Below, in pieces: positions 8,083 through 26,922 of a DNA stretch of 27,375 bases (position 1 is its first letter; each line of letters opens with the position of its first letter). Both the position numbers and the translations under genes were made by a program. Below the pieces are notes generated by a model. The model saw only the letters and a list, made by a program, of their open reading frames with translations. It was not told the DNA's origin and did not search any database. The stretch is taken from positions 1 through 27,375 of IMG/VR virus record IMGVR_UViG_3300031708_000037; one strand, written 5' to 3'. Origin of the DNA: a virus.

Positions 8083-8559
8083 TCACGTTTCCCCGCGCTC
8101 AAGCGCCTCGACCCGCTCCTCGAGCGCGGCAAGGCGGCTCACGTCGGCGTCTTCTCCCGCCGGGCCGGGCGGACCCGCCGGTCCAGCTACGCCCTGCGGT
8201 CCAGGCGGCCCCGGCTCCCCGACTGCTCCCTGCAGCCCAGGCGCGCCCGCCGGCCCTTGCGGACCGAGCGGCCCTAACTCGCCCTGCGGCCCCGCCGGAC
8301 CCGTCTCGCCGGCCGCCCCTGGCTCGCCTTGCGCACCGGGCTCGCCTTGTGGGCCGGGAGGCCCGGCCGGGCCCGGCCCGCCAGCGCCCGGCGGCCCCGG
8401 CGGGCCGCGCATTCCGATCGGGCCTTGTCGACCTTGTGGGCCGGCCGGACCCGGAGGCCCCGGCGGGCCTTCGCCGACTGGCGCGCGATCGAGCCGGCCG
8501 AGATCCTTCGGCGTCGCCTCGACCAACAGCGGCGGCTCGCGATTGTCCGCCAAGGTCAC
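8083..8559 (-). CDS. Collagen-like structural protein (158 aa)
   Basis: A 158-aa protein of which residues about 29-136 are Gly-X-Y collagen repeats rich in GPP, GPA and GEP triplets, with one break in register near residues 58-66. A short coiled-coil follows ([19 protein letters not shown], 139-157). Such segments trimerise, and phage collagen-like proteins usually sit in fibres or tail needles. The start is a GTG at 8559 preceded by AAGGAGG with ideal spacing, overlapping the stop of the shorter collagen gene (GTGA). It lies directly upstream of gpV. The C-terminal coil shares its opening residues with that of the neighbouring 84-aa protein, so the two look like paralogues. Virion location is inferred. 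Confidence 0.85.
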
Positions 8560-8810
8560 GTCTCAGCCTCCTTGAGCTCCTGGATCGTCGCTTGCAGCTC
8601 TGCGACCGTCGCCTCCAACGCGGCGATGCGCGCCACGTCGGCCGGCGGGCCAGGCGGGCCTTCCGGACCAGGCGGCCCTTGCGGTCCGGCCGGGCCTTGA
8701 GCGCCGGCGGGTCCGGCCGGGCCAGGCGGGCCTTGCGGCCCGGGCGCTCCGCCGGCCGATTGACCGCCGCCCATCTTGCCCAGCACAACGAACTTTGGTT
8801 CTTGCGCCAT
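8556..8810 (-). CDS. Short collagen-like protein (84 aa)
   Basis: An 84-aa protein with three parts: a Gly-rich N-terminus ([21 protein letters not shown]), a collagen block of about 12 Gly-X-Y triplets (residues 21-57) and a C-terminal coiled-coil ([20 protein letters not shown]). I chose the ATG at 8810 because GAGG lies 5 bases upstream; a TTG at 8825 is an alternative that would overlap the upstream gene. The same order of parts and the shared ADV-x-R-x-AALE coil start in the next gene point to duplication. Probably a trimeric virion protein; exact role unknown. Confidence 0.8.
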
Positions 8811-8821
8811 GAAAGCCTCAT

Positions 8822-9613
8822 TCAAGCTGCGGCGGCCTGCGATCGTCCGCCTGGGTCAGTCTCCGGAATGTCCAAAGGCGCAATCCCGAGCGCCGTTAGG
8901 CCTTGCAAGGTGTAGCTGCCGCGCTTCTGCTCGATCCGCCACGACGGCAGGCCGGGCGTGGTCTGGAAATGCGCCTCGATCAGCGCGGCGATGGCGCCAA
9001 GATCCGGATCGTCGTGCGCGAGGTCGAAGAAGTCGCGCCAGAAACCTTTCGGGATCGGCTCGCCATAAACCGGGTCGGCCAAGACGCCGAGCTGCATCCG
9101 CATGATCCGCGAGGCGAAGCGAATCGCGCTTTGCTGCTGCTGCTGACCAGGGCCGCCGCGCCGGACCTCGACGCGTGGGCGCCCGGCGACGGTGAACAGC
9201 CGCCACAACTCCGACCATGGGTTGTCCACGGCGAGCAAAGCTTGCAGCGCTTGTTGGGAAAGGAAGCCGATCGACAGTTCAAGCCCGCTGTCGGTTTGCG
9301 CCAGCGTCGTGGTGTGCGGTCCGCCCGGCGGCGCATGGGCGTTGGCGTCAGGCCCGGCCGGCGCCACCACGATCTGATCGGCGACCGCGCACTCGATGGT
9401 CAGATAGACTCGCGCGTCGGGATTGTGCAGCGAGTCGTCCTGAGTGTCGGCGTCGGCGTCGTCGGTGTAGACGCCGATGAACGGCGCGCGCTCCTCCTCG
9501 ATCTTGAGATCAGCGGCTTGGGCGGGCGAATCGTACACGCGCCCGCCGGCCCAGGTGCGGCCTTTGAGCGCTTTGACCGTCAACAATCTTAGAACATCCT
9601 GCCCGAGGATCAT
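8822..9613 (-). CDS. Hypothetical neck/tail-completion-region protein (263 aa)
   Basis: A 263-aa protein coupled by ATGA to the upstream 142-aa gene. The start [21 protein letters not shown] at 9613 sets the coupling; longer readings have no support. The first 170 residues are alpha/beta ([18 protein letters not shown], then [19 protein letters not shown] and [19 protein letters not shown]), similar in style to tail-terminator or minor tail proteins that occupy this site in other phages. A run of five Gln (encoded by CTG repeats on the plus strand near 9130) sits in a loop, and the C-terminus is helical with [19 protein letters not shown] cannot assign a family; a tail-terminator or neck role is a positional inference. 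Confidence 0.65.
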
Positions 9614-13510: not shown

Positions 13511-13691
13511 CATGAAACGGACAAAAATCCGGCTGCTCGAACGTACGGGCAAGCCGGAGCACCATTTCAGCGTTCAGGGATACTCCATGACTTTGGGCGG
13601 CGGCCTTCAGCCTAAGATGCTCGTGCTCTCTCATCCGCAGATTGACCTGCACGATGTCGGTCGTTTCGCGGCGCGCAAGAGCGGCCTTCAT
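13446..13691 (-). CDS. Arc/MetJ-type ribbon-helix-helix DNA-binding protein
   Basis: An 81-aa protein whose residues about 13-50 match the Arc repressor pattern: a strand with alternating polar residues (VQVNLRMREHEHLRLKAAAQ) followed by SHGVSLNAEMVLRLARTFE. The SLNAE-x-V-x-RL stretch is diagnostic of Arc-family proteins, which bind DNA as dimers of dimers. The Cys-containing C-terminus (PDFCPFHDECRASDG) is not typical and may result from a frameshift, since a helical frame overlaps it. It is coupled by ATGA to the S74 spike gene. An Arc-type regulator within the head operon could control late or accessory phage genes. Confidence 0.75.
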   Translation of the reverse strand: MKAALARRETTDIVQVNLRMREHEHLRLKAAAQSHGVSLNAEMVLRLARTFEQPDFCPFHDECRASDGKYRAPDAVAPRGG

Positions 13692-14863
13692 CGCGCCGCC
13701 TCCAATTGTTCGACGCGCGCGGCCAGTTGCTTAATCGCGCCAAGGAGAAGGGCGAACATGTTGTTGGTTTCGATTTGCATCGGGTTGAACGGCGCGTCGC
13801 TCGACGCGGTCGCCGGCGGCGCTGGTGGCTTGACGATAAGCGACGGCGCGACTTCCTGAATGCGTTGCGCGACGAGACCGATCGGGATCAGAGTCTCCGG
13901 CGTCGACCCGACTGGCTTGATGTCGCCGGGCGTCGAATTGTCCCTCCAGCGAAACTGATAGAGCGGGATTTTCTCGACTGCGGCGAGACAATCGAAGGTC
14001 GCCGGCGCGATGTCTTGCTTGAGGCGTTCGTCGCTTTGGTTGGTGAGTTGCAGCCAGCCGGTGGCGTTATTGATGTTGACGAAAACGTTGCCGTTCCAGT
14101 GGAAGGCGTACCAATGCTCGCCGCCAAGCGACGTATGCAGTCCCAAGTTTCCCGCGCTCAACCCGTTGTTGCCAGTAACGGTGCCGCCCACGTTGGCCGC
14201 GCCGACTATGTTGGCGGTTGTGCCTACGTGCAGGTGTGCGCTTACGCTGACGCCGCCCGTCGCGGTGACGCCGCCGTCCAGATCAATCAGGACCGCCGCG
14301 CCCCATGTAATCTCAGCGCCGGCCTCGCCGTTCGCGGCCGTGTTGAAATGCATGACGCCGTTCGACGCGCTAACGGCAAACGCCGGCCCGTCGAAGGCGT
14401 AGCGCCATACGCCTTCAGTCAAAACAGCATTGCGAGTGAGATGGTTGTTAACCTCGCCGCCGCCGATCACGATCTGCGGGACGATGAGCGTCGGTTCGTC
14501 GAGCGTGCGGCCGCCATGCTCGCGAACGATCGGCGGCGCCTCTTGCCATTCGCGATCCTTGCGCCCGTAAGTCCGCCCGTCCTCGGGCTCGCCCGCGATC
14601 GCTTCAACGATGCGGTCGAGCAGCTCTCGCACGTCCTCGGGCACGCCGGTGACCTTAAGCGCGCCGTCGACCAGTTCTAGCGGCGCTTCGACCGCGATCG
14701 TCTGCGCCGGCCCGCGCTCGGGATCGAGGCGGCCGACCAAAGTCTGGCCGTCGACCTCGAGGGCGAAATCGTCGTTATGGCCGGCGACGACAAATTCGTG
14801 CAACGGCTCGCCGGCGGCATCGACCCGATCGCGAAGCGGCAGCGTGATCTTGGGATCGATCAT
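13688..14863 (-). CDS. Tail spike/fibre with C-terminal peptidase S74 chaperone domain
   Basis: A 391-aa protein. Residues 150-270 are a Gly/Asn-rich beta region (SVSAHLHVGTTANIVGAANV, then NVGGTVTGNNGLSAG), typical of fibre shafts. From residue 277, SDERLKQDIAPATFDCLAAV followed by EKIPLYQFRWRD and IPIGLVAQRIQEVAPSLI is the intramolecular chaperone auto-processing (S74) domain, which trimerises the spike and then cuts itself off before the SDERLKQDI serine. The last 25 residues form a coiled-coil. The start at 14863 gives an ATGA overlap with the gpW-like gene. Its place among head genes is odd: such proteins normally lie in the tail module. Confidence 0.85.
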   Translation of the reverse strand: MIDPKITLPLRDRVDAAGEPLHEFVVAGHNDDFALEVDGQTLVGRLDPERGPAQTIAVEAPLELVDGALKVTGVPEDVRELLDRIVEAIAGEPEDGRTYGRKDREWQEAPPIVREHGGRTLDEPTLIVPQIVIGGGEVNNHLTRNAVLTEGVWRYAFDGPAFAVSASNGVMHFNTAANGEAGAEITWGAAVLIDLDGGVTATGGVSVSAHLHVGTTANIVGAANVGGTVTGNNGLSAGNLGLHTSLGGEHWYAFHWNGNVFVNINNATGWLQLTNQSDERLKQDIAPATFDCLAAVEKIPLYQFRWRDNSTPGDIKPVGSTPETLIPIGLVAQRIQEVAPSLIVKPPAPPATASSDAPFNPMQIETNNMFALLLGAIKQLAARVEQLEAAR

Positions 14864-15126
14864 GGCCCGATCCGTCGCGATCCGGCGGTGATGGCGAATC
14901 GACGCCAGCGCACCGGCTTGCCGGACAAGAGCGCGCACTCGTTCTCGGCCGCGCGGTATTCGTTCAACAGCCGATCGAGATTGGCGTTCGAATAGCTCAC
15001 TCGACGATTGACGCCGTTGGCGGAATAGGTCACGTCCGATTCCTGCGAACCGGAAATCAGTCGATTGTAGGCCGCCCACAAGGCCGCGGCGCGGGCGCAC
15101 GGGTCGCTCCAATCGATCGCCGCCAT
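14860..15126 (-). CDS. Head-tail joining protein, lambda gpW-like
   Basis: An 88-aa protein right after the portal gene. It has a helical N-terminus (ARAAALWAAYNRLISGSQES) followed by a beta hairpin (DVTYSANGVNRRVSYSNANL) and a helix (DRLLNEYRAAENEC). This helix-hairpin-helix order is the gpW fold, a small protein that prepares the portal for tail binding. Lambda W is 68 aa; this one has about 20 extra C-terminal residues. The order terminase-portal-joining protein is lambda-like apart from the cargo island. Confidence 0.8.
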   Translation of the reverse strand: MAAIDWSDPCARAAALWAAYNRLISGSQESDVTYSANGVNRRVSYSNANLDRLLNEYRAAENECALLSGKPVRWRRFAITAGSRRIGP

Positions 15127-17683: not shown

Positions 17684-17733
17684 CGCCGCTATCCAATAGA
17701 GTGGGCGAGGCGAACGATTCGGGGGTCGAACGA

Positions 17734-18063
17734 ATGAAGGCGTTGACGATCAGACAACCCTGGGCGGACCTCATTCTCGCGGGCGTCAAGACTCGCGAAT
17801 ATCGAAGCTGGCGGGTCGACTATCGCGGCGCGCTGCTCATTCACGCCGCCAAGCGCAAAGAGCCATTCGCCGACGTGCCGCGCTCGACGCCGCGCGGCGG
17901 GTTCGTCGGCGTGGTCGATCTGGTCAACATCTTCGTCACCGACGAAATTGATCCGGGCAAGCGCTACGCCTGGGCGCTCGCCAACCCGCGCCGCATCCCG
18001 TTCGTCGCCGCGAAAGGGCGTCTCGGTCTGTTCGACCCGCCAGAGGAGCTGCTGCGGACGTAA
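17734..18063 (+). CDS. ASCH-domain protein (109 aa)
   Basis: The only well-supported plus-strand gene. The N-terminus MKALTIRQPWADLILAGVKT followed by REYRSWRVDYRGALLIHAA matches the ASCH domain, a PUA-like fold that binds RNA or nucleotides. The IRQPWA motif, the G-x-K-x-x-EYRSW segment and the later GGFVGVVDLVNI strand are the family hallmarks. Length is normal. The ATG at 17734 has GGGGG at 8 bases; a GTG eleven codons earlier is possible. It points against the restriction operon, and the two share a convergent end with a hairpin. A role in translation, RNA processing or modified-nucleotide handling is a family-level inference only. Confidence 0.85.
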   Translation: MKALTIRQPWADLILAGVKTREYRSWRVDYRGALLIHAAKRKEPFADVPRSTPRGGFVGVVDLVNIFVTDEIDPGKRYAWALANPRRIPFVAAKGRLGLFDPPEELLRT

Positions 18064-18272: not shown

Positions 18273-18965
18273 TTAAACCTGATCGGCGGCGTCCTCGGCC
18301 TCGGCTTCCTCCGCGGCCTGCTGCTCGGCAAGCGCCTTGGGAAGCTTGGCCAGAGGTCGGCCCGCCTGATAGTCCTCGATCCGCTGCAACAGCATTTCGG
18401 TCGTGACGGGGCTTTCGGCAAGCTTCAAGAAAGCCTTTCGACCCGGATGCAGAACGTCCCACGGAGACCGAAACTGTGTCGCTCGCCGTTTGCCGGGGTC
18501 ATTGTTGCCGAATCCGTCGATGGCGCGGTTCCACACCGGCTTGAACGTCTCGATCAGCATGTTTTCCCCGAGGGGAATCCAGATGTCATCGACGACAAGC
18601 TGCCGGACGTGAAAATCGGCGAGGTCGAGATTTTCGGCCTCCGCGATGGACGCGGCGTGCTTTTTCAGCCGGTCGCCAAGGGCGCGGCCTTTCACGGCTG
18701 CATCCTTCGACAGGCCGCCCTTGCGCCCTCCCTTCGGGATCGCCTTGCCGATATAGATTGGCCGCTCGAACTTGCCGCCCCCGTTGGCCTCGGCGATGGC
18801 CGCATAAGCGGGAAACGGCCCGGTGTAATAGATCACATAGACGCCAGCCCCCGCGGCCTGATCGACCGCCGAAAGCGGCTCGGTCGGACGCGCCAGAAGC
18901 TCGATCTCGATGCTCTTGGCGAGATTGAGCTTGTCGAGAGGATTGTAAGCCGTCCCCTTTTTCAT
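18273..18965 (-). CDS. Type II restriction endonuclease, Eco29kI family (GIY-YIG)
   Basis: A 230-aa protein of the Eco29kI family, GIY-YIG nucleases that cut CCGCGG. The two signature strands are GVYVIYYTG (Tyr43) and PIYIGKA (Tyr71). Arg99 and His103 in DRLKKH have the family's R-x-x-x-H spacing, and ENMLIETFKPVWN supplies the Glu (139) and Asn (146) region. The text FGNNDPGKRRATQFRSPWDVLHPGR is also typical. The C-terminus is Ala/Glu-rich. The ATG at 18965 forms an ATGA overlap with the methyltransferase stop; the longer open frame is a shadow. The target is predicted from the family, not seen. It is intact, so the operon should give a functional restriction barrier. Confidence 0.88.
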   Translation of the reverse strand: MKKGTAYNPLDKLNLAKSIEIELLARPTEPLSAVDQAAGAGVYVIYYTGPFPAYAAIAEANGGGKFERPIYIGKAIPKGGRKGGLSKDAAVKGRALGDRLKKHAASIAEAENLDLADFHVRQLVVDDIWIPLGENMLIETFKPVWNRAIDGFGNNDPGKRRATQFRSPWDVLHPGRKAFLKLAESPVTTEMLLQRIEDYQAGRPLAKLPKALAEQQAAEEAEAEDAADQV

Positions 18966-20122
18966 GCCGCGGCCTTCAAACGCCGGGCGATGTCCTCGCC
19001 AACGGTCCGGGCAAGAAGCACGGGAACGGCATTGCCAAGTTGGCGCATGGTTTCGCTCCATGAGCCGTGAAACAGGAAATCGTCGGGGAAGGTTTGAAGG
19101 CGGGCGCTCTCCCGCACCGTGAAATACCGCACTGTCCCGTTTGGCGGGGCCAGCATGTTCTCGCCGCCCGGCACACCGTGAACACCGGCCTTGAGCGTCT
19201 TGGCCGGTTCATCGAGCGGGCTGCCGGTGTGACCGGCGTAGCTTCGCGCGCCTGGCTGGAAACGATGATTGAGAAGGCGGCTTGCCGCAGCGGTGTCATA
19301 CTCGGGATCTGGCAAGTCGTGGATCGCGTCCCGCACGGTCCTCCACGGAAGCGTCGAGGGGCGCTCGTCCATGCGCTTGCCGCGGTCCCTGGCCCGCGGG
19401 TTGATGATCCTGCCCTTCCGCGCCACCGCGTGGCGTTCCCAATAATCTCCGCGGGTTTGATCCCATAGGAGGGCGTCGAGCGAATGCGTTTCCTCGGGGA
19501 AGGTCCATTCAATGCCGAGGTCGTCCCTGAACCCGACGAAAACGACGCGCTCGCGGCGCTGCGGAACTCCGTAGTCGGCGGCGTTCAACACGCGGGTTAC
19601 GACGCGGTAGTGCAAGTCGGCGCGGACGCCGCTCGTGTGATGGCGCTCCAGCCATGCCAGGTGATCAATCCAATCCTCGCCGCTTCGCGCGGCGACGTTC
19701 GGATGCTCAAGCTGCAAGCGGACGTACTCGAAATAATTTCGGAAGGCTGTCCGCGTCAGGCCCTTCACGTTCTCGAACACAAACGCCTTGGGGCGTGCCT
19801 CGCGGATGGCGCGGATCGCCTCGGGGAACATGTCGCGCGCGTCGTTGAAGGCGCGGTGCTTGCCGCCAAGGGAAAAGGGCTGGCAGGGCGGCCCGCCGGA
19901 AACAAGCTCGATCTTGTTCCTGTACCGCTGAAAATCGACCTCTCGCACGTCGCCCTCGGTAACTTTCCAGCCGGCGACGGCCTTGATTCCGCGGTCCTGG
20001 TTCTCGCGGATGGTGTCACAGCAATAGCTGTCCCATTCAATGACGTTGAGGGGATGAAAGCCTGCTAGATGCAGCCCTATCCCAAGTCCTCCGGCGCCAG
20101 CGAATAGTTCAACTGATTTCAT
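18962..20122 (-). CDS. DNA cytosine-C5 methyltransferase (Dcm family) of the R-M system
   Basis: A 386-aa C5-cytosine methyltransferase with all main motifs in order: I, VELFAGAGGLGIGLHLAGF (residues 4-22, AdoMet binding); IV, GGPPCQPFS with catalytic Cys80; VI, FENVKGL (Glu117); VIII, QRRERVVFVGFR; IX, FTVRESARLQTFPD; and X, QLGNAVPVLLA. The region between VIII and IX is the target-recognition part. It protects the host and phage DNA from the neighbouring Eco29kI-like nuclease. It is coupled by ATGA to vsr upstream and to the endonuclease downstream. No controller (C) gene was seen; expression of the nuclease may depend only on coupling. Confidence 0.93.
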   Translation of the reverse strand: MKSVELFAGAGGLGIGLHLAGFHPLNVIEWDSYCCDTIRENQDRGIKAVAGWKVTEGDVREVDFQRYRNKIELVSGGPPCQPFSLGGKHRAFNDARDMFPEAIRAIREARPKAFVFENVKGLTRTAFRNYFEYVRLQLEHPNVAARSGEDWIDHLAWLERHHTSGVRADLHYRVVTRVLNAADYGVPQRRERVVFVGFRDDLGIEWTFPEETHSLDALLWDQTRGDYWERHAVARKGRIINPRARDRGKRMDERPSTLPWRTVRDAIHDLPDPEYDTAAASRLLNHRFQPGARSYAGHTGSPLDEPAKTLKAGVHGVPGGENMLAPPNGTVRYFTVRESARLQTFPDDFLFHGSWSETMRQLGNAVPVLLARTVGEDIARRLKAAA

Positions 20123-20532
20123 GGTTCCAAGAATGCCTTAATTGTCTCGGCCAAGGAAGTCTTGTTATTTACCTGACACTCCCAAACAACGAGCGCATCC
20201 CAGCCCGCAGCCCGGAGTTCTTGCTGTTTTACGCTGTCTCGCTTGCGATTACTTTCCAACTTCGTCTCCCAAAAATCGAGCCGCGATTTCGGAAGGCGGG
20301 CGAGCTTGCACCGCGAATCAGCGTGACGATGCCAGAAACAGCCATGCACGAAAATCACCTTGCGGCGAGTTGCGAACACCAAATCCGGGCAACCGGGGAG
20401 ATCGCGGCGGTGAAGGCGGTAGCGATAGCCCATGCCATGCACGAGGCGGCGTACGGTCATCTCGGGGCCGGTGTCCCTGCCCCGGATGCGGCTCATGCGC
20501 TCGCTTCTCTGCTTAGGGTCCAGGGTGTCCAT
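20119..20532 (-). CDS. vsr: Very short patch repair endonuclease Vsr
   Basis: A 137-aa Vsr protein, which nicks DNA 5' of T in T:G mismatches formed when 5-methylcytosine deaminates. Family features are MSRIRGRDTGPEMTVRRLVH, the catalytic Asp in GCPDLVF, the HGCFWH motif with two active-site His, the Cys-rich zinc part (CFWHRHADSRC) and the NRKRD Asp followed by GWDALVVWECQ. Length is normal. Its ATG lies at 20532 and its stop overlaps the methyltransferase start, so the repair enzyme and the methylase are made together, which limits mutation at methylated target sites. Confidence 0.93.
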   Translation of the reverse strand: MDTLDPKQRSERMSRIRGRDTGPEMTVRRLVHGMGYRYRLHRRDLPGCPDLVFATRRKVIFVHGCFWHRHADSRCKLARLPKSRLDFWETKLESNRKRDSVKQQELRAAGWDALVVWECQVNNKTSLAETIKAFLEP

Positions 20533-20755: not shown

Positions 20756-21865
20756 TCAGTTCAACAACGCTTTCGCGTCCGCCGCGCTGATCGCGGGCGC
20801 CCTGGCGGGAACGAATTCAAACACCGCGCACGGCCGGGGATTATAGCGTTCAGGCAGCGTGCGCGTGGCGCTCACCGATGAATACGTGCCGGGCCGCTTG
20901 CGCATCACCCAATTCGGGCTGCGATCGAACGAACGCACCAGCGCCGGGTGGGCCGGATAGGTGTGCAAGCGCAAGCCGGCGGCGCGATACGCCGCGCCCA
21001 GCCAATCGACCAGGATCATCGCCAGCCCCAAGCCCTGATAGTCGGGCAGCGTCACCAGCCGGGAGACGCCCTTGATGTCCTCGGCCTTGGGGTGGGGCCG
21101 GTGCAGGACGCCGGCGAACGAGGCGGGAACGCCCTCGACGAATAGGACGAAGCACGCCGCGCCGCGATGCAATTCCGCCGTCAGATAGTGAAACGGAGCG
21201 AAAAGCTGCCAGCTTTCGAAAGGCGCTCGCGCGATCTCGACGTTGAGCTCCGGTCGTCGTTGAAGAGACCTCCATTGGAAGGTCATGGTCGCCGGCTCCA
21301 GCGTCCAATCGGGTTGCAGCCAATCGATCACGTCATAGTGACAAGTCACGGCGACGAATCGGCGCTCGTGCTTGCGGACATATTTCTGCACCGCCTGACA
21401 GCCGATATGCGCCACTCGCCGATCGACGACCGAGGTGAATTCGTCGATCATGATGTCGGCGCCGCCCTCGAGGAGATGGCGGGCGAGTTCGACGCGGAAC
21501 TTCTCGCCGGTCGAGAGCACGCCATAGGGCTTCATCCAGCTTGGAATGGTGTTGAAGCCGACCGCCTGACAAATCTCGGCGATCTGTTCAATCGAATAGT
21601 CGACGGCGAAATCGTCGCACACCGAGCCCGCCGTCCATTCGAGCGTCGCCGCCTCGCCGAACAATTGCCGCGCGATGGTCGACTTGCCCGAGCCCGACGG
21701 TCCGACGATCAGCCCCACGCGCCAGTCGCGCTCGTCGAGCGGCAATTCGGCCTGCCAGCGCTGAGTGAGCTTGTCGCGCGCCGGAACGTCGAACATGCCG
21801 GAGAGCTGCTTGACGCGCGGCGTCAGCTTGAGATCGGTTGCGACCTCGACGTCCAATTGGCGCAT
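20756..21865 (-). CDS. ABC-type ATPase fused to a GNAT acyltransferase domain
   Basis: A 369-aa fusion. The N-terminal half is an ABC ATPase without membrane segments: Walker A GPSGSGKST (55-63), signature LSTGEKFRVELAR (117-129), Walker B ADIMIDEFTSVVDRR (136-150) and the switch His in CHYD (176). The C-terminal half (about 225-330) is a GNAT domain: a beta strand with CFVLFVEGVPASFAGVLHR, then motif A SRLVTLPDYQGLGLAMILVDWL, with the acyl-CoA-binding Q-G-L-G-L-A. GGAGG lies 7 bases before the ATG. Similar fusions occur in phages and prophages; their substrate is unknown to me. A role in nucleic-acid or protein acylation linked to phage defence or counter-defence is speculation. It stands alone between the HTH-ImmA gene and vsr. 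Confidence 0.85.
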   Translation of the reverse strand: MRQLDVEVATDLKLTPRVKQLSGMFDVPARDKLTQRWQAELPLDERDWRVGLIVGPSGSGKSTIARQLFGEAATLEWTAGSVCDDFAVDYSIEQIAEICQAVGFNTIPSWMKPYGVLSTGEKFRVELARHLLEGGADIMIDEFTSVVDRRVAHIGCQAVQKYVRKHERRFVAVTCHYDVIDWLQPDWTLEPATMTFQWRSLQRRPELNVEIARAPFESWQLFAPFHYLTAELHRGAACFVLFVEGVPASFAGVLHRPHPKAEDIKGVSRLVTLPDYQGLGLAMILVDWLGAAYRAAGLRLHTYPAHPALVRSFDRSPNWVMRKRPGTYSSVSATRTLPERYNPRPCAVFEFVPARAPAISAADAKALLN

Positions 21866-21960: not shown

Positions 21961-23037
21961 TCATTTCATCACGGTAAGGCGCGGCCTCCGGTGGACCGAG
22001 GCGCCCAAGTTGTAGAAAGCATGCAAATCGTGTTCACGGGCATGAAGAAGTCGGGCCAGCTCCTGGGCCGAATATCCAAGTGCATCCATATGGATGCGAA
22101 GCATTGTCCCGATCACCGTGGGATTCTCGGGCTCGAAGTCGAGCTCTGGGGGCTCACGAAGCCGTAGCCTTCGAGCATTGATCTGCTTCCAAAGATATTG
22201 AGCCTGGTTCTTCGTTACCAAGCCGAGGGAGCTGGCGCGCATCAATAGCGCTTGCATTGCCACCTTCCACTCGGGCTTGAGGGCCGCCAACAATGCGAGA
22301 TCGACGCGGCGTCCGAGGAACGCGCCTCGAATATCACTGCCCGGCATCAAGAGGGCTGAGGCAAAGGCGTTCGCCTCCTCTTCCATCGTCGGGGACGGGA
22401 AGCGGTGCATGACGAGATGCCCAAGTTCGTGAGCAAGTGTGAACCGGAGGCGATCTGCGGGCTGCTCGCTATTCAGCACGATAAGTGCCGGAAGGCCGGG
22501 AGTCGCGAACGTAACTCCACTCACTGATGCCCCGGCCAATGGGGAATGCGCGACCAAGATGCCGGCGCGCTCGACGAGCAGCGTCAGGTCTTTGATCGGG
22601 CCTCTTGGCATCTTCCAATGAGCGCGCACAAGGGCCGCGATCTGCTCGGCATCCCCATAGTCCTCAATGTCCAAGCGCGGGAGATCATTAGCATGGGTGT
22701 ATTCTGCTCCCTCGAGTAGGCGCCGAAGATGCATGATCCGGATGTTCAGTTCAGCGACAATGGCATCCATGTCGCGCACGCTCACATCGGCCTTGCGCCG
22801 CCACATCGGATGCACACTCACGGGAGCGCCGTAGACCGGGTCCGTCAGCAAGAAGAACGATCGCGGCAGCTCATATGCAGTTTCGGCGCGTAACAGCACT
22901 TCCTCGCGCGCCTCGACAAATCCATTTTCTATACGAGATAGCAGGGATTGATCGACACCAAGCCGGGAGGCGGCGTCGGTCTGTTGGAATCCCTTTCGCT
23001 GCCGCGCGATGCGCAGCATGGCCCCGTTCGCATGCAT
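21961..23037 (-). CDS. HTH (XRE) and ImmA/IrrE metallopeptidase fusion, probable antitoxin/repressor
   Basis: A 358-aa protein. Residues 8-60 are an XRE-type helix-turn-helix (RIARQRKGFQQTDAASRLGV, then DQSLLSRIENGF). Residues about 150-240 are an ImmA/IrrE zinc peptidase: FTLAHELGHLVMHR carries the HExxH site, and MEEEANAFASALLMPGSDI supplies the downstream Glu and the usual ANAFA-x-x-LLMP motif. Proteins of this type cleave repressors or act as antitoxins. The gene starts 5 bp after an uncharacterised gene, so the two form an operon. Lower GC and more AT-ending codons than in the structural genes suggest separate acquisition. An autoregulator role is supported by the palindrome in front of the operon. 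Confidence 0.88.
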   Translation of the reverse strand: MHANGAMLRIARQRKGFQQTDAASRLGVDQSLLSRIENGFVEAREEVLLRAETAYELPRSFFLLTDPVYGAPVSVHPMWRRKADVSVRDMDAIVAELNIRIMHLRRLLEGAEYTHANDLPRLDIEDYGDAEQIAALVRAHWKMPRGPIKDLTLLVERAGILVAHSPLAGASVSGVTFATPGLPALIVLNSEQPADRLRFTLAHELGHLVMHRFPSPTMEEEANAFASALLMPGSDIRGAFLGRRVDLALLAALKPEWKVAMQALLMRASSLGLVTKNQAQYLWKQINARRLRLREPPELDFEPENPTVIGTMLRIHMDALGYSAQELARLLHAREHDLHAFYNLGASVHRRPRLTVMK

Positions 23038-23042
23038 AGCGA

Positions 23043-23627
23043 TTACTCGCTAGTCTGAGGCTTGTCGGCGGTCTTTCTCGGTCGGACCTGCGGCAGCGCA
23101 TTGTCGCTTGGTCCGGACGGGCGCGGCGGAAGCTCAATTACATTCGAAGCCTCTCCGCCAAATATTGGATAACTCCAAATCTTCCGTCTGCGGCTCCGCT
23201 TCGTTACCGCGACCATTTCCATCTTGGTCGCGAGCTTATCCAGGACGTAACAGACTTCAACTTTGAAGATATCGGGCAAAAACTGCGGAATGCTCAGTTG
23301 TGGATCCACAAATTCGAGCACCGCTTGGGTTTCGATGTTTGATCCGATTCCTTTCGAGTTCGCCTTCTTGAAGCGAATCAGAACCTGATCGCGAAACAGG
23401 AACTTGACCGTCTGGCCCTCCATGACGGGATGGATATCGGGATCGCCATCGAACTCCGTGAGGGCATGATCCTTGATGAAGTCGAATACGACAGACGCCC
23501 GCGACCGCGCCGATAGCTTGCCCTTCTTGGGCATTTCGAGCCATTCGGTCCAGGCGCGATCCAGAATGGCCCGGATACGCTGCTCAAAGTCAGTAAGAAT
23601 GTGGCGGACTTCGTCCTGATGGTTCAT
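23043..23627 (-). CDS. Uncharacterised protein paired with HTH-ImmA, putative toxin or defence effector (194 aa)
   Basis: A 194-aa protein, first gene of a two-gene operon with the HTH-ImmA gene. The N-terminus is helical (HILTDFEQRIRAILDRAWTE). It is followed by alpha/beta text (RASVVFDFIKDHALTEFDGD, then VKFLFRDQVLIRFKKANSKG and VEVCYVLDKLATKMEMVAVT) and a disordered basic tail. No catalytic motif stands out. Small proteins of this look commonly precede HTH-ImmA genes, an arrangement resembling toxin-antitoxin defence pairs such as RosmerTA as I recall it; identity with that system is unproven. The ATG at 23627 has GAGGGGA upstream, overlapped by a palindrome. Confidence 0.65.
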   Translation of the reverse strand: MNHQDEVRHILTDFEQRIRAILDRAWTEWLEMPKKGKLSARSRASVVFDFIKDHALTEFDGDPDIHPVMEGQTVKFLFRDQVLIRFKKANSKGIGSNIETQAVLEFVDPQLSIPQFLPDIFKVEVCYVLDKLATKMEMVAVTKRSRRRKIWSYPIFGGEASNVIELPPRPSGPSDNALPQVRPRKTADKPQTSE

Positions 23628-23639
23628 GGAACCGGTTCC
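23628..23639. promoter_or_regulatory. 12-bp perfect palindrome abutting the start codon (candidate operator)
   Basis: GGAACCGGTTCC is its own reverse complement and lies directly before the ATG of the 194-aa gene. Its left half on the coding strand overlaps the Shine-Dalgarno sequence GAGGGGA. A repressor bound here, most likely the HTH-ImmA protein made from the same operon, would control the pair. Binding is inferred. Confidence 0.5.
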
Positions 23640-23691
23640 CCTCGAATCGCTCGCTCAGGGTGGCACGGTCATTTCCCATTTTCAAGGTTTT

Positions 23692-23880
23692 TTATGCACG
23701 ATCTATGTTTTTCCCCAACGTCTTGCGGCCCGCCTTCTTCGCGATCTCAGCACGACGCTCGGGCGTCATCTTGGCGGCCCGCGCCGCGCCGCCCTTGGTG
23801 CCGAGCGCCTTAGCGGCCGGGTCCTTCTTGCCATCGTCGATCGGCAAGTGCTCGGTCTCTTCGCCCGTCGCAATGCGCAT
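23692..23880 (-). pseudogene. Small KGG-type protein, apparently frameshifted at both ends
   Basis: The 62-aa reading starts MRIATGEETEHLPIDD and contains ALGTKGGAARAAKMTPERRAEIAKKA, the centre of a small conserved protein common in alphaproteobacteria and their phages. Upstream in the same frame the text RRPADVIGNAVKV also looks conserved but has no start codon; a GTG in another frame would join it if one C were added. At the other end, removing one G from GCGGGCC would give KKAAARRWGKT and a stop at 23703-23705, the ending I remember for the family, in place of GRKTLGKNIDRA. Either the gene is decaying or the sequence has two indel errors. Function of the family is unknown. Confidence 0.55.
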
Positions 23881-23934: not shown

Positions 23935-24510
23935 TCACGCTATGAGCGCTTCGCACTTCAAGCCTTGCTCCTCGAAGGCGGCCAGAAGCTCGCGCTGCTG
24001 CAGTTCGCCCTCGCAGCGCACCACGATCGAATAGTTGAGCCCCTTGAGCTTGGGCGCGGCGCGCTCCGCAATGTCCTCGGCCAGCTTGTCCAGTTCGCGC
24101 TCGTCAAAGCCGATGACGAGATCGATCGTCGGATCCTCTTCGCGCAGCGCCGTGATCTCGGCGATCAGGAGATCGTCGTCCCAGCGGGCGTTCTCGGCCA
24201 GCTTGTTGTCGGCGATGACGTAGGCTTTCTTTTGCGCGTCGCTCCAGCCGCGCGCGACCAGGCACGGCGCTTCCTCGAGCTTGAGCCGCTCGGCCGCCAG
24301 CTTCCGCCCGTGGCCGGCGAGGATCATGTCGTCCTCGTCAATCAAGATCGGGATGGTGAACCCCCATTGCCGCATCGAGCGGGCGATTTGCTTGACCTGA
24401 CGGGCTGAATGGGTGCGCGCGTTGCCGGGGTACGGCTTGAGGTCGGCGAGCGTCCGCATCTCGACCTGAGCGGAGGAGTTTCTGAGCAGCTTGACGCGCG
24501 CAGCGCTCAT
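23935..24510 (-). CDS. ParB-like nuclease-domain protein
   Basis: A 191-aa protein with a ParB/Sulfiredoxin N-terminal domain: the first motif LKPYPGNARTHS (24-35), then GFTIPILIDEDDMILAGHGRK with the conserved GHGR, and the helix LAAERLKLEEAPCLVARG. The C-terminal part (GLNYSIVVRCEGELQQRELL) is the common ending of stand-alone phage ParB-like proteins. Many relatives are fused or adjacent to DNA methyltransferases; this one has none attached. The ATG at 24510 overlaps the terminase stop by ATGA, so it is part of the packaging operon. Possible roles are DNA nicking, a nucleotide-dependent switch or a regulator. Confidence 0.85.
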   Translation of the reverse strand: MSAARVKLLRNSSAQVEMRTLADLKPYPGNARTHSARQVKQIARSMRQWGFTIPILIDEDDMILAGHGRKLAAERLKLEEAPCLVARGWSDAQKKAYVIADNKLAENARWDDDLLIAEITALREEDPTIDLVIGFDERELDKLAEDIAERAAPKLKGLNYSIVVRCEGELQQRELLAAFEEQGLKCEALIA

Positions 24511-26411
24511 TCGTTGAACCGGGCCGCCCAATTGGCCATCGACGATCGGCGCGGCCGCGGCGGCGATGGCGGCGCGGCGCCATCCGGTGAAGGCGGCGGC
24601 TCGATCGGACGGCGCGCCGCCCTGGCGCGCAGATCGATCGCCTTGACCGCCGGCGACTGACGAACCCCCCACGCGTAGCACAGCGCGTCGAGCGCCTCCA
24701 CTTGCTGGCCCCGCCGCTTGGGCGTGAACTCGATCACCGGACGATTGCGGACATAGCGCACGCGGCGGACCTCGCCCGTCACCTGATCGAACCAATTCAC
24801 CGGCAGCTCGTCGCTCACTCTGAGCGCGTGCGGGTTTGGATTGCCCTCGACGTCGAACGGCTCGGCCGACAGCAATTCCAGCACGGCGGTTTTCACCTGA
24901 TCGTGGGCCAGGATGAACAGCCTGGCCGTCTTGCCCGACTTGATGCGCTGCGCCCTGGCCCAGATCGGCCGCGCCCCGCCGACGCCGCGAATGGCGTAAA
25001 TCCGCCGATGCAGCCGCGCGCCGCAGAAGTCATAAACCTTTTGCGTCCGGCCTTCGTGGCCGCCCGAGTCGATCGCCGTGCCGTCGATCTTGATCTCCCA
25101 GCCGAACGGGTGGCGCCACCGGGTCATGAGAAACGCGTCGACATCGCGCCAGGTCTGATCTTCCAGAGTGTTGCCGTCGATGATCACGTGGGCGAGCACG
25201 CACGGGGCCCCCGCGAGCGGCCAGCCGACCACGCAAATCTCGACCCGATCGTCCTGAACGTCGGCGCCGGCGGTCAACAGGACGATCTCTTCCGGGATGC
25301 GCTCCAGCCCGATCGGCTCGACCCGGCCGGCCAGGACGTCGGCGCTGAGCCGATTGATCGAGGTCCGCCACGTCTTGCCGAGGGTGAGATTGGTGAACAC
25401 CTGCAGCTCGGCCGGACCGCCGCGCTTGGCCTTCAAGAACTCGGCCGCCAGCTTGCCCCAGGCGGCGTTGGGCAGCAGCGAAACGAGGGTGTTGAGCCGA
25501 TAGCCGCGATGGCCGACGATCTCCGGCCGTTGCGCCCGCCAACGCCCGTCCTCGACCAGTCTCGGCTTCCAGCGTTCCTCGATCTCGCCGCCGCAGCGCG
25601 GACAAAAGCCCGTCGCCTTATCCGGCTCGCCTTCCGGCCACTGGATCATCTCCCACAGCAATTCGAACCATTCGGCGCAATGCGGACAGGCAATTTCATA
25701 AACCCGCATGTCGCTCTCGTTGTACGCGCGCTCGACCAGGCTCACGTCCTCCTCGGTCGGCGTCGAGCCGCGCACGATCTTTCGATCGGCGTGAGCGAAG
25801 GTCCGCTTCTCGGCGATCGCCAGCGGGTCGCCCTCGACCGTGATCTCCATCGCGTCGATCTCGTCGCAATAGAGCACCTTGAAGTCGTGCCGCCGCAGAT
25901 TGCGCGTCGCTCGGGCCGACAGGATCTTGAGGCTCGCGCCGCCGATGAACCGCTTGCGGGTGAGCGTGTTGCGGCCCTCGATGCGGCCGGAGATCATCAA
26001 CCCGCGCAACGCCGGTGAACTCTCAAACAACGGCTCGATCTCGTCGGTCGCGTAGTCGCGGGCGTCGTCATCGACCGGAACCAAAAGCCCGATCGGACAG
26101 GGATCGATCATCACCGTGGCGCCGATCGCGATCATGAGCGCCTTGGTGAAGCCGACGCGCGAGGGCTTCATCAACGTCACGTATTCGGGCGTCGGCGCGC
26201 CGATCGTGTCGAGAATTTCCCGCATGTACGGCCAATTGCGGAACGCCCCGGTGCGCGCGCTCTGCCCGGCCGGCAAAACGATGTTGCTCTCCGCCCATTC
26301 GGCGAGCCTGAGCGACGCGGGCGGCTCGAAGCGGCGAAACAGCCGTTCGCGCCACTCGACTTGCGCGCCGTCAAGCGCTCTCAGCGTCAGCGTCGGCGTG
26401 CTTGTTGCCAT
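24507..26411 (-). CDS. A: Terminase large subunit, lambda gpA family
   Basis: A 634-aa packaging motor and nuclease of the gpA type. The ATPase half shows a Walker A-like loop KPSRVGFTK (82-90), Walker B VLYCDEID (179-186) and the coupling motif RGSTP (214-218). Two Cys pairs, CPHC (242) and CPRC (270), form a zinc site typical of this family. The nuclease half begins at LLTAGADVQDDRVEI (378-392) and continues with AIDSGGHEGR (446-455), which carry the metal-binding Asp residues. Length is close to lambda gpA (641 aa). It overlaps the small subunit gene by 41 bp and the ParB-like gene by 4 bp. Confidence 0.93.
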   Translation of the reverse strand: MATSTPTLTLRALDGAQVEWRERLFRRFEPPASLRLAEWAESNIVLPAGQSARTGAFRNWPYMREILDTIGAPTPEYVTLMKPSRVGFTKALMIAIGATVMIDPCPIGLLVPVDDDARDYATDEIEPLFESSPALRGLMISGRIEGRNTLTRKRFIGGASLKILSARATRNLRRHDFKVLYCDEIDAMEITVEGDPLAIAEKRTFAHADRKIVRGSTPTEEDVSLVERAYNESDMRVYEIACPHCAEWFELLWEMIQWPEGEPDKATGFCPRCGGEIEERWKPRLVEDGRWRAQRPEIVGHRGYRLNTLVSLLPNAAWGKLAAEFLKAKRGGPAELQVFTNLTLGKTWRTSINRLSADVLAGRVEPIGLERIPEEIVLLTAGADVQDDRVEICVVGWPLAGAPCVLAHVIIDGNTLEDQTWRDVDAFLMTRWRHPFGWEIKIDGTAIDSGGHEGRTQKVYDFCGARLHRRIYAIRGVGGARPIWARAQRIKSGKTARLFILAHDQVKTAVLELLSAEPFDVEGNPNPHALRVSDELPVNWFDQVTGEVRRVRYVRNRPVIEFTPKRRGQQVEALDALCYAWGVRQSPAVKAIDLRARAARRPIEPPPSPDGAAPPSPPRPRRSSMANWAARFNE

Positions 26412-26922
26412 TGTCGTTTTGCGCCTTCGGCAACGGCGCTTTGCCCGCGATGGCGACCTCGCGCAAAAGCTCCTGCGTCAATTCCTGCAACAGCTCGTAA
26501 TGGTCGCGGCTCAAATCCGGGGCGCGCTCGCGCATCCTCGAGGCGATGGACCGAAACAGGAACTGCGTCGCCTGGATCAACTCGCCCCACATGGCCTCGA
26601 TCTCCGCCATGCTGACCAGCGTGCCTCGAAGCTGATCGTAGCGAAGATCGGTGAGCCGCCGCTGGCTGTCGCGCAGCGCGGCGTTGGCGCGCATCGCCTC
26701 GCCGGTGCCGTAGCCGGAGGCGAGCCGGCGAAAATGCCCGAGCACGAACCGGATGGACGGGAACAGCGGGTACTTCTTCGCCGCCGAGCGCTTGATGATG
26801 CCCGTCCGCCAATATCGGCGAATTTCCTGCGCGTCGCAGTCCAACACTCGGCCGAGCGTCGCCTCGTCCACCTCGGTCGTGCCAACTTCGTCGGTCGGCT
26901 CAGCGGTCGGTTTCCGCGCCAT
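26371..26922 (-). CDS. Terminase small subunit (Nu1-like DNA-packaging protein)
   Basis: A 183-aa protein. Residues 19-65 form a Nu1-type winged helix-turn-helix (EATLGRVLDCDAQEIRRYWR, then TGIIKRSAAKKYPLFPSIRF), which recognises the packaging site. The rest is helical and dimer-forming (RANAALRDSQRRLTDLRYDQ, then AEIEAMWGELIQATQFLFRS). The last residues are polar. It is the first gene of the late operon as read leftward, starting MARKPTAEPTDEV at 26922, and its end overlaps the large subunit start by 41 bp, a sign of translational coupling. Confidence 0.85.
   Translation of the reverse strand: MARKPTAEPTDEVGTTEVDEATLGRVLDCDAQEIRRYWRTGIIKRSAAKKYPLFPSIRFVLGHFRRLASGYGTGEAMRANAALRDSQRRLTDLRYDQLRGTLVSMAEIEAMWGELIQATQFLFRSIASRMRERAPDLSRDHYELLQELTQELLREVAIAGKAPLPKAQNDNGNKHADADAESA

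Follow-up and report, generated by a model that had tools for sequence, protein, structure and literature searches.

The stretch of DNA analysed here, referred to as the window, is a whole virus record of 27375 bases. On its minus strand the genes for the small and the large terminase subunit are followed by a ParB-like gene, a block of genes for a 62-aa, a 194-aa and an HTH-IrrE protein, a gene encoding a fusion of an ABC ATPase with a GNAT acyltransferase (ABC-GNAT), and the genes for Vsr, a C5-methyltransferase and an Eco29kI endonuclease. Beyond the endonuclease comes the ASCH gene, which is convergent, and the portal gene lies farther along (Table 1). The ABC-GNAT reading frame is intact from its ATG at 21865 to its stop at 20756, and a GGAGG is found 8 nt 5' of the ATG. 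Elsewhere on the minus strand, two adjoining collagen-like proteins with Gly-X-Y repeats (8083-8825) are probably parts of the tail fibre, and a tail-fibre-like protein (13688-15112; C-terminal PHROG tail fibre matches, S74-chaperone-like) is encoded by the portal gene and not among the tail genes.

Table 1 Features of the ABC-GNAT module and its surroundings in the window. Residue numbers refer to the ABC-GNAT product.
Feature	Position	Strand	Basis
Terminase genes, large (24507-26411) and small (26371-26922), upstream of the module	24507-26922	-	Pfam, PHROG
ParB-like partner, 191 aa; ATG overlaps the stop of the large terminase gene (ATGA)	23935-24510	-	ParB HMM E 3.4e-64; PHROG
Conserved C-terminal tail of ParB, homologous to the microprotein of Mu-like and Porphyromonas phages	23938-24081	-	HMM
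Genes for the 62-aa, 194-aa and HTH-IrrE (RmrA-like, RosmerTA-type antitoxin) proteins, in the gap between ParB and ABC-GNAT	21961-23880	-	Pfam, PADLOC
ABC-GNAT fusion gene, 369 aa, family phrog_11143	20756-21865	-	ORF, Pfam, PHROG, AlphaFold
ABC ATPase domain, residues 1-203	21257-21865	-	Pfam and structure match
Walker A GPSGSGKST, residues 55-63 (coordinates: GPSGSGKS, 55-62)	21680-21703	-	~100% conserved in 230 relatives
ABC signature LSTGE, residues 117-121	21503-21517	-	L, S, G 100% conserved
Walker B and catalytic Glu, residues 137-142 (IMIDE, 138-142)	21440-21457	-	D141, E142 invariant
Switch His H176 (TCHYD)	21338-21340	-	100% conserved
GNAT acyltransferase domain, residues 205-353	20807-21253	-	Pfam and structure match
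H226-Y227, family-invariant dipeptide after GNAT helix 1	21185-21190	-	99-100% of 225 sequences
Acyl-CoA pyrophosphate loop QGLGLA, residues 277-282	21020-21037	-	Q277, G278, G280 97-100% conserved
Vsr (20119-20532), C5-methyltransferase (18962-20122), Eco29kI endonuclease (18273-18965)	18273-20532	-	Pfam, PADLOC
ASCH gene, convergent; usual 3' neighbour in the window's clade	17701-18063	+	Pfam E 3.6e-8; ASCH HMM E 3.6e-37

Both halves of the fusion are recognized by Pfam above the curated cut-offs (ABC_tran, E 1.2e-7; Acetyltransf_1, E 9.3e-6), and the PHROG family phrog_11143, annotated as 'unknown function', matches residues 6-323 (E 2.5e-91). An earlier note, made from the letters alone, had described a full set of ABC motifs and a GNAT loop in one soluble chain, and the family bears this out: Walker A, LSTGE, Walker B, switch His and acyl-CoA loop are all present and invariant across 230 relatives. 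In these dereplicated homologues a conservation of about 100% is reached by G55, S57, G58, G60, K61, L117, S118, G120, D141, E142 and H176 in the ABC half and by R269, V271, P274 and G278 in the GNAT half, so the motifs are not due to chance. An AlphaFold model, for which 58 homologues served as input, is confident (pLDDT 92.3, pTM 0.84) and recovers the ABC as well as the GNAT fold. When compared by VIA-align, the ABC half resembles nucleotide-binding domains (NBDs) with Z-scores of 14.9-13.5 (MJ0796, 1l2t: Z 14.4, rmsd 3.6, 180 aligned residues), and the GNAT half resembles 1y9k (Z 13.9, rmsd 3.9, 135 aligned) and RimI (5isv, Z 13.3). A full-length relative in BFVD stems from Leptospira phage LE4 (E 6e-34, TM 0.84).

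Could the ABC half simply belong to a transporter? Several phage records annotate relatives as ABC transporter, and among its structural matches transporter NBDs rank as high as ABC ATPases that work without membrane domains. Nevertheless, an ordinary transporter ATPase is hardly credible. The chain has no membrane domain, no transmembrane or permease gene was found among the conserved neighbours of ABC-GNAT at 230 loci, and full-length relatives carry the GNAT half. In addition, Walker A and signature are separated by 57 residues, a spacing that is longer in transporter NBDs. ABC-F proteins, ABCE1 and Rad50/SMC have Walker A, LS[N/T]GE, Walker B, D-loop and switch His in common with ABC-GNAT, in which these elements are also intact, but the model of the latter contains a single ABC domain, with neither a coiled coil nor a second ABC domain joined by an ABC-F linker. 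The transporter, ABC-F and SMC readings were rejected on architecture.

The family is widespread. By tblastn it is found in 73 phage records with hosts ranging from Gordonia to Aeromonas and Streptococcus, and at least 133 virus contigs carry close relatives of the window's gene; hundreds more sequences belong to other clades, and metagenomic phages with the family number in the hundreds. A further 278 stretches come from bacterial genomes, mainly of Planctomycetes and Actinomycetes, and are taken as prophages since terminase or portal genes often lie near. In some phages (L075/L076, Lactococcus phage P335, Streptococcus phage Javan141 and L328) ABC and GNAT are encoded by separate adjacent genes, a sign that both halves function jointly. 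Tandem duplicates of the fusion occur in L046-L050, one phage group in which the copies are about 1 kb apart with genes for aspartate decarboxylase and a CoA-transferase-like protein in between. In L097-L107 and L114, from many Nonomuraea species, ABC-GNAT is accompanied by terminase-like genes, perhaps as a domesticated prophage.

Phage ABC-GNAT proteins have been predicted before to acylate a DNA base (PMC7824862, 2021, citing 2013 work). The novelty implied by the earlier note therefore falls away: the window's protein belongs to a known, predicted and uncharacterised family, and the core prediction is not new. In the literature searched we found no experiments on the family, and publications on the carrier phages LE3/LE4 and those of P. 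gingivalis hold no restriction or modification data. A search for COG2401 and MK0520, which we take to be names for ABC-acetyltransferase fusions, returned nothing. The com slot, the exchange with Mom, the tail microprotein and the links to donor enzymes, which are described in the following, did not appear in the literature searched either, although the 2013 work may hold some of them.

A survey of gene neighbours, one of the checks proposed at the outset, brought out a ParB-like partner, a com gene and an exchange with Mom. Among the 210 loci with enough upstream sequence, a ParB-like gene, or just its C-terminal tail of about 45 aa, precedes ABC-GNAT in 193, and neither is present in 17. 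Full-length ParB genes, ending in the tail of about 45 residues, number 152; at 48 further loci the upstream match consists of just the tail or a shortened version, and those of Mu-like and Porphyromonas phages measure about 50 aa. In HMM searches the tails of full-length ParBs and the stand-alone tails retrieve each other, and the stop of either mostly overlaps the start of ABC-GNAT by 3 or 21 nt. Microproteins of about 50 aa that resemble the ParB tail (phrog_28816) stand alone directly 5' of ABC-GNAT in L086 (5852-6001), L090 (5328-5456) and L281 (5834-6004).

A ParB-like gene also precedes Mom in the actinophages Appa and StevieBAY (ParB HMM, E 2e-38 and 2e-42). As these proteins match the ParB HMM yet are without the ABC-GNAT-type tail, the tail is probably the part specific to ABC-GNAT, and ParB itself a partner common to Mom. 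At their C-terminus the two Mom-operon ParBs carry a CxxC motif instead of the tail (L444 2469-3621, L446 2181-3561). ParB-like proteins accompany other DNA-modification systems as well, namely as DpdB and DndB (PMC10853773, PMC12839542).

Another recurrent neighbour is the Com zinc ribbon (PF10122, E 4e-15; four Cys conserved), which is encoded directly 5' of ABC-GNAT at 39 of the 210 loci. These are Mu-like phages, all within a clade that also carries a formyltransferase; directly 5' of the window's ABC-GNAT com is absent. In phage Mu, Com is the translational activator of mom (PMC6483171). As a control, 80 com loci were picked by Com similarity alone, with ABC-GNAT disregarded. Here com is followed by an open reading frame with DNA-methyltransferase motifs in 64 cases, by broken copies in two, by Mom in three, by ABC-GNAT with formyltransferase in one and by genes of no clear type in the rest. 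With mostly DNA methyltransferases and some Moms behind com, the com slot is a DNA-modification slot. An exchange is also seen between the P. gingivalis phages BK068089 and BK068093, whose tail-region DNA is 92% and 83% identical at the nucleotide level: after the last tail gene the former continues with tail microprotein, ABC-GNAT and formyltransferase, the latter with Mom. None of 328 ABC-GNAT loci contains a Mom gene; the large phage PX29 has both, 17 kb apart.

The same neighbourhoods allow for a protein as substrate. In about half of the loci with flanking sequence (94 of 180) the gene just downstream of ABC-GNAT encodes the large terminase, which makes a packaging protein conceivable as target. 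The GNAT half might acylate a phage or host protein, be it terminase or portal, RNA polymerase or one involved in defence, with the ABC half as an ATP-driven scaffold. The protein N-acetyltransferases RimI and Naa50 are among its nearest listed folds, and phage Rac acetylates host RNA polymerase (PMC7552054). We consider this explanation unlikely, since in Mu-like phages the gene follows com close to the end of the genome and adjoins terminase at only 2 of 39 loci, since com otherwise controls DNA-modification genes, and since the ParB partner is common to Mom. The earlier note had left the choice between a base, tRNA and protein; the gene neighbourhoods favour a DNA base.

How does the window fit into this picture? 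Its ParB and ASCH genes are intact, as is the rest of the module, but they stand apart from ABC-GNAT, ParB by 2 kb. Its closest relatives, such as L005 and L014, have ParB and ABC-GNAT overlapping by 21 nt and ASCH abutting ABC-GNAT, and lack the window's defence genes between the partners. Given this contiguity, a conserved module has most likely been interrupted twice by inserted cargo in the window, once by a RosmerTA-like block and once by an Eco29kI-type restriction-modification (R-M)/Vsr cassette. The HTH-IrrE protein matches RmrA in PADLOC (E 6e-54), which we read from its name as a component of RosmerTA, and together with the adjoining 194-aa protein (phrog_15813; 21961-23627, minus strand) it is probably a RosmerTA-like toxin-antitoxin pair. 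The R-M/Vsr cassette is complete, with genes overlapping by ATGA, and lies inside the phage packaging region. For CCGCGG, presumably the Eco29kI site, there is no clear avoidance: the window has 18 copies of it and 36-86 of five other GC-only palindromes, while GGGCCC and CCCGGG are rarer.

With Eco29kI R-M, Vsr and an RmrA-like protein next door, ParB and ABC-GNAT might themselves be seen as a defence or conflict module serving to mark incoming DNA or nucleotides or to damage them, or to protect self from a nuclease, all the more as ABC ATPases and ParB-like proteins are found in Dnd and BREX-linked defence (PMC10853773, PMC12839542). This is very unlikely to be the role of the family. PADLOC matches of the window's ABC-GNAT are weak and concern ATPase regions of mad3/mad8, no nuclease is conserved beside the gene at 230 loci, and the defence genes between the window's partners are missing there in relatives. 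A role in triggering defence, as once proposed for the fusion, found no support.

Toxin-like activity on tRNA is a related thought. Known GNAT toxins act on aminoacyl-tRNA, and the window has an IrrE-type antitoxin gene adjoining ABC-GNAT. The IrrE gene, however, is particular to the window and not to the family, which is linked to DNA-modification slots instead, and we see only a slim chance that the fusion is a tRNA or aminoacyl-tRNA acetyltransferase.

Downstream neighbours differ between clades. An ASCH (PUA-fold) gene, mostly convergent, follows ABC-GNAT in about a fifth of the loci (43 of 198). The N4-acylcytosine amidohydrolase YqfB relies on a catalytic K-x2-T-x-R (PMC6972931); K-x2-E-x-R is found in 32 of 40 ASCH neighbours, and also in the window's ASCH (KTREYR). 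With the catalytic Thr replaced by Glu, ASCH as a YqfB-type eraser of N4-acylcytosine was dropped. Because of the missing Thr, the sequences make a reader or binder appear likelier than an eraser.

One clade (67 rows, support 100) has a Formyl_trans_N gene 3' of ABC-GNAT. Its product resembles the hydrolase domain of 10-formyl-THF dehydrogenase, and the His and Asp positions are kept in most members; the position at which classical transformylases have Asn is Gly. In a separate clade ABC-GNAT is followed by an aspartate decarboxylase (Pfam E 2e-33), whose YxGS cleavage site is preserved in all 11 sequences, and then by a short CoA-transferase-III-like protein, whose match is confined to the N-terminus. 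In both clades these genes abut or follow ABC-GNAT. The decarboxylase/CoA-transferase-III-like pair is seen after ABC-GNAT in L082 (7101-8212) as well as in L046, L053, L055, L064, L096, L185-L187, L189 and L192. Of the isolated phages, Jace has this pair, Gordonia phage Axumite has ParB with the formyltransferase, and Nonlabens phage P12024S is without ParB. These accessory enzymes suggest amino-bearing acyl donors, for example beta-alanyl-CoA; alternatively, the pair might supply CoA itself.

All these observations lead us to think that ABC-GNAT is probably the catalytic core of a Mom-like phage DNA-hypermodification system. In such a system two ABC domains would form a dimer with ATP and either clamp the DNA or open it, and the intact ABC motifs suggest that the reaction depends on ATP. 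The ParB/Srx-like partner, judging from its linkage, might recruit or load the enzyme onto DNA via the short tail. The GNAT half would then move an acyl group from acyl-CoA to the exocyclic amine of a base once the phage DNA has been replicated, at about the time of packaging, and the modified DNA would withstand host restriction. In other clades, decarboxylase and CoA-transferase-III-like protein might provide a beta-alanyl-type donor, and the formyltransferase might formylate the transferred amine. As the window's accessory genes are ParB and ASCH only, its version probably uses host acyl-CoA.

It is tempting to go further and regard the family as a second independent solution of the Mom type, ATP-driven and ParB-assisted, that places several amino-acyl groups (beta-alanyl, N-formylated amino-acyl) on bases. 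We offer this as a tentative idea and would lean against it at present; if true, it would mean DNA modifications that are hitherto undescribed. DNA hypermodification is a main route by which phages escape restriction, and it also yields useful enzymes. Thanks to the com/mom slot and the exchange with Mom, a prediction made a decade ago can be put to the test with phage isolates. Which chemical groups to seek is hinted at by the genes linked to ABC-GNAT, namely those for the decarboxylase, the CoA-transferase-like protein and the formyltransferase.

Among known systems, com-mom of phage Mu is the natural point of reference. Mom, too, is a GNAT-fold enzyme; com stands 5' of the Mu-like ABC-GNAT relatives, the same slot is used in sister Porphyromonas phages, and some Moms have a ParB partner. 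The comparison with Mom that had been proposed thus gives a split answer: gene position speaks for a likeness in function, whereas homology beyond the GNAT fold finds no backing. An ABC domain is lacking in Mom, as is any visible QxxGxG acyl-CoA loop like that of ABC-GNAT, and sequence homology is undetectable: the Pfam scan gave no Mom match in ABC-GNAT (PF25680), BLASTP reached E 1.6, and hhalign of the profiles returned a probability of 0.1% with a shallow Mom set. The 50 fold neighbours listed for the GNAT half do not include the Mom crystal structure 8bv8, which does not imply that a likeness in fold is excluded. After the first GNAT helix Mom has HYS where ABC-GNAT has HYL, a likeness by eye that we do not count as evidence. 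Dpd and Dnd also pair a ParB-like protein (DpdB, DndB) with a DNA-modification enzyme, but their chemistry is that of deazaguanine and phosphorothioate, and they contain no ABC-GNAT.

With the GNAT superfamily (RimI, Naa50, PA4794; Z 12-14) the second half has the fold and a Q/RxxGxG/A loop (QGLGLA, 277-282) in common, while the invariant HY dipeptide and the attached ABC half are its own. The first half, with Walker A, signature, Walker B Glu and switch His, is an ABC ATPase. The closest system is the ABC ATPase-coupled GNAT family of Iyer and Aravind (PMC7824862), for example in Tenacibaculum phage pT24, for which the same role is predicted. The window protein finds a match in pT24 that spans 95% of its length (31% identity, E 4e-46); in contrast to the window, which belongs to the ParB and ASCH clade, pT24 has the two halves annotated as separate ORFs and gives no ParB or tail match. 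With ABC followed by GNAT in one chain and a match to the phrog_11143 profile, the window's protein is a member of this published family.
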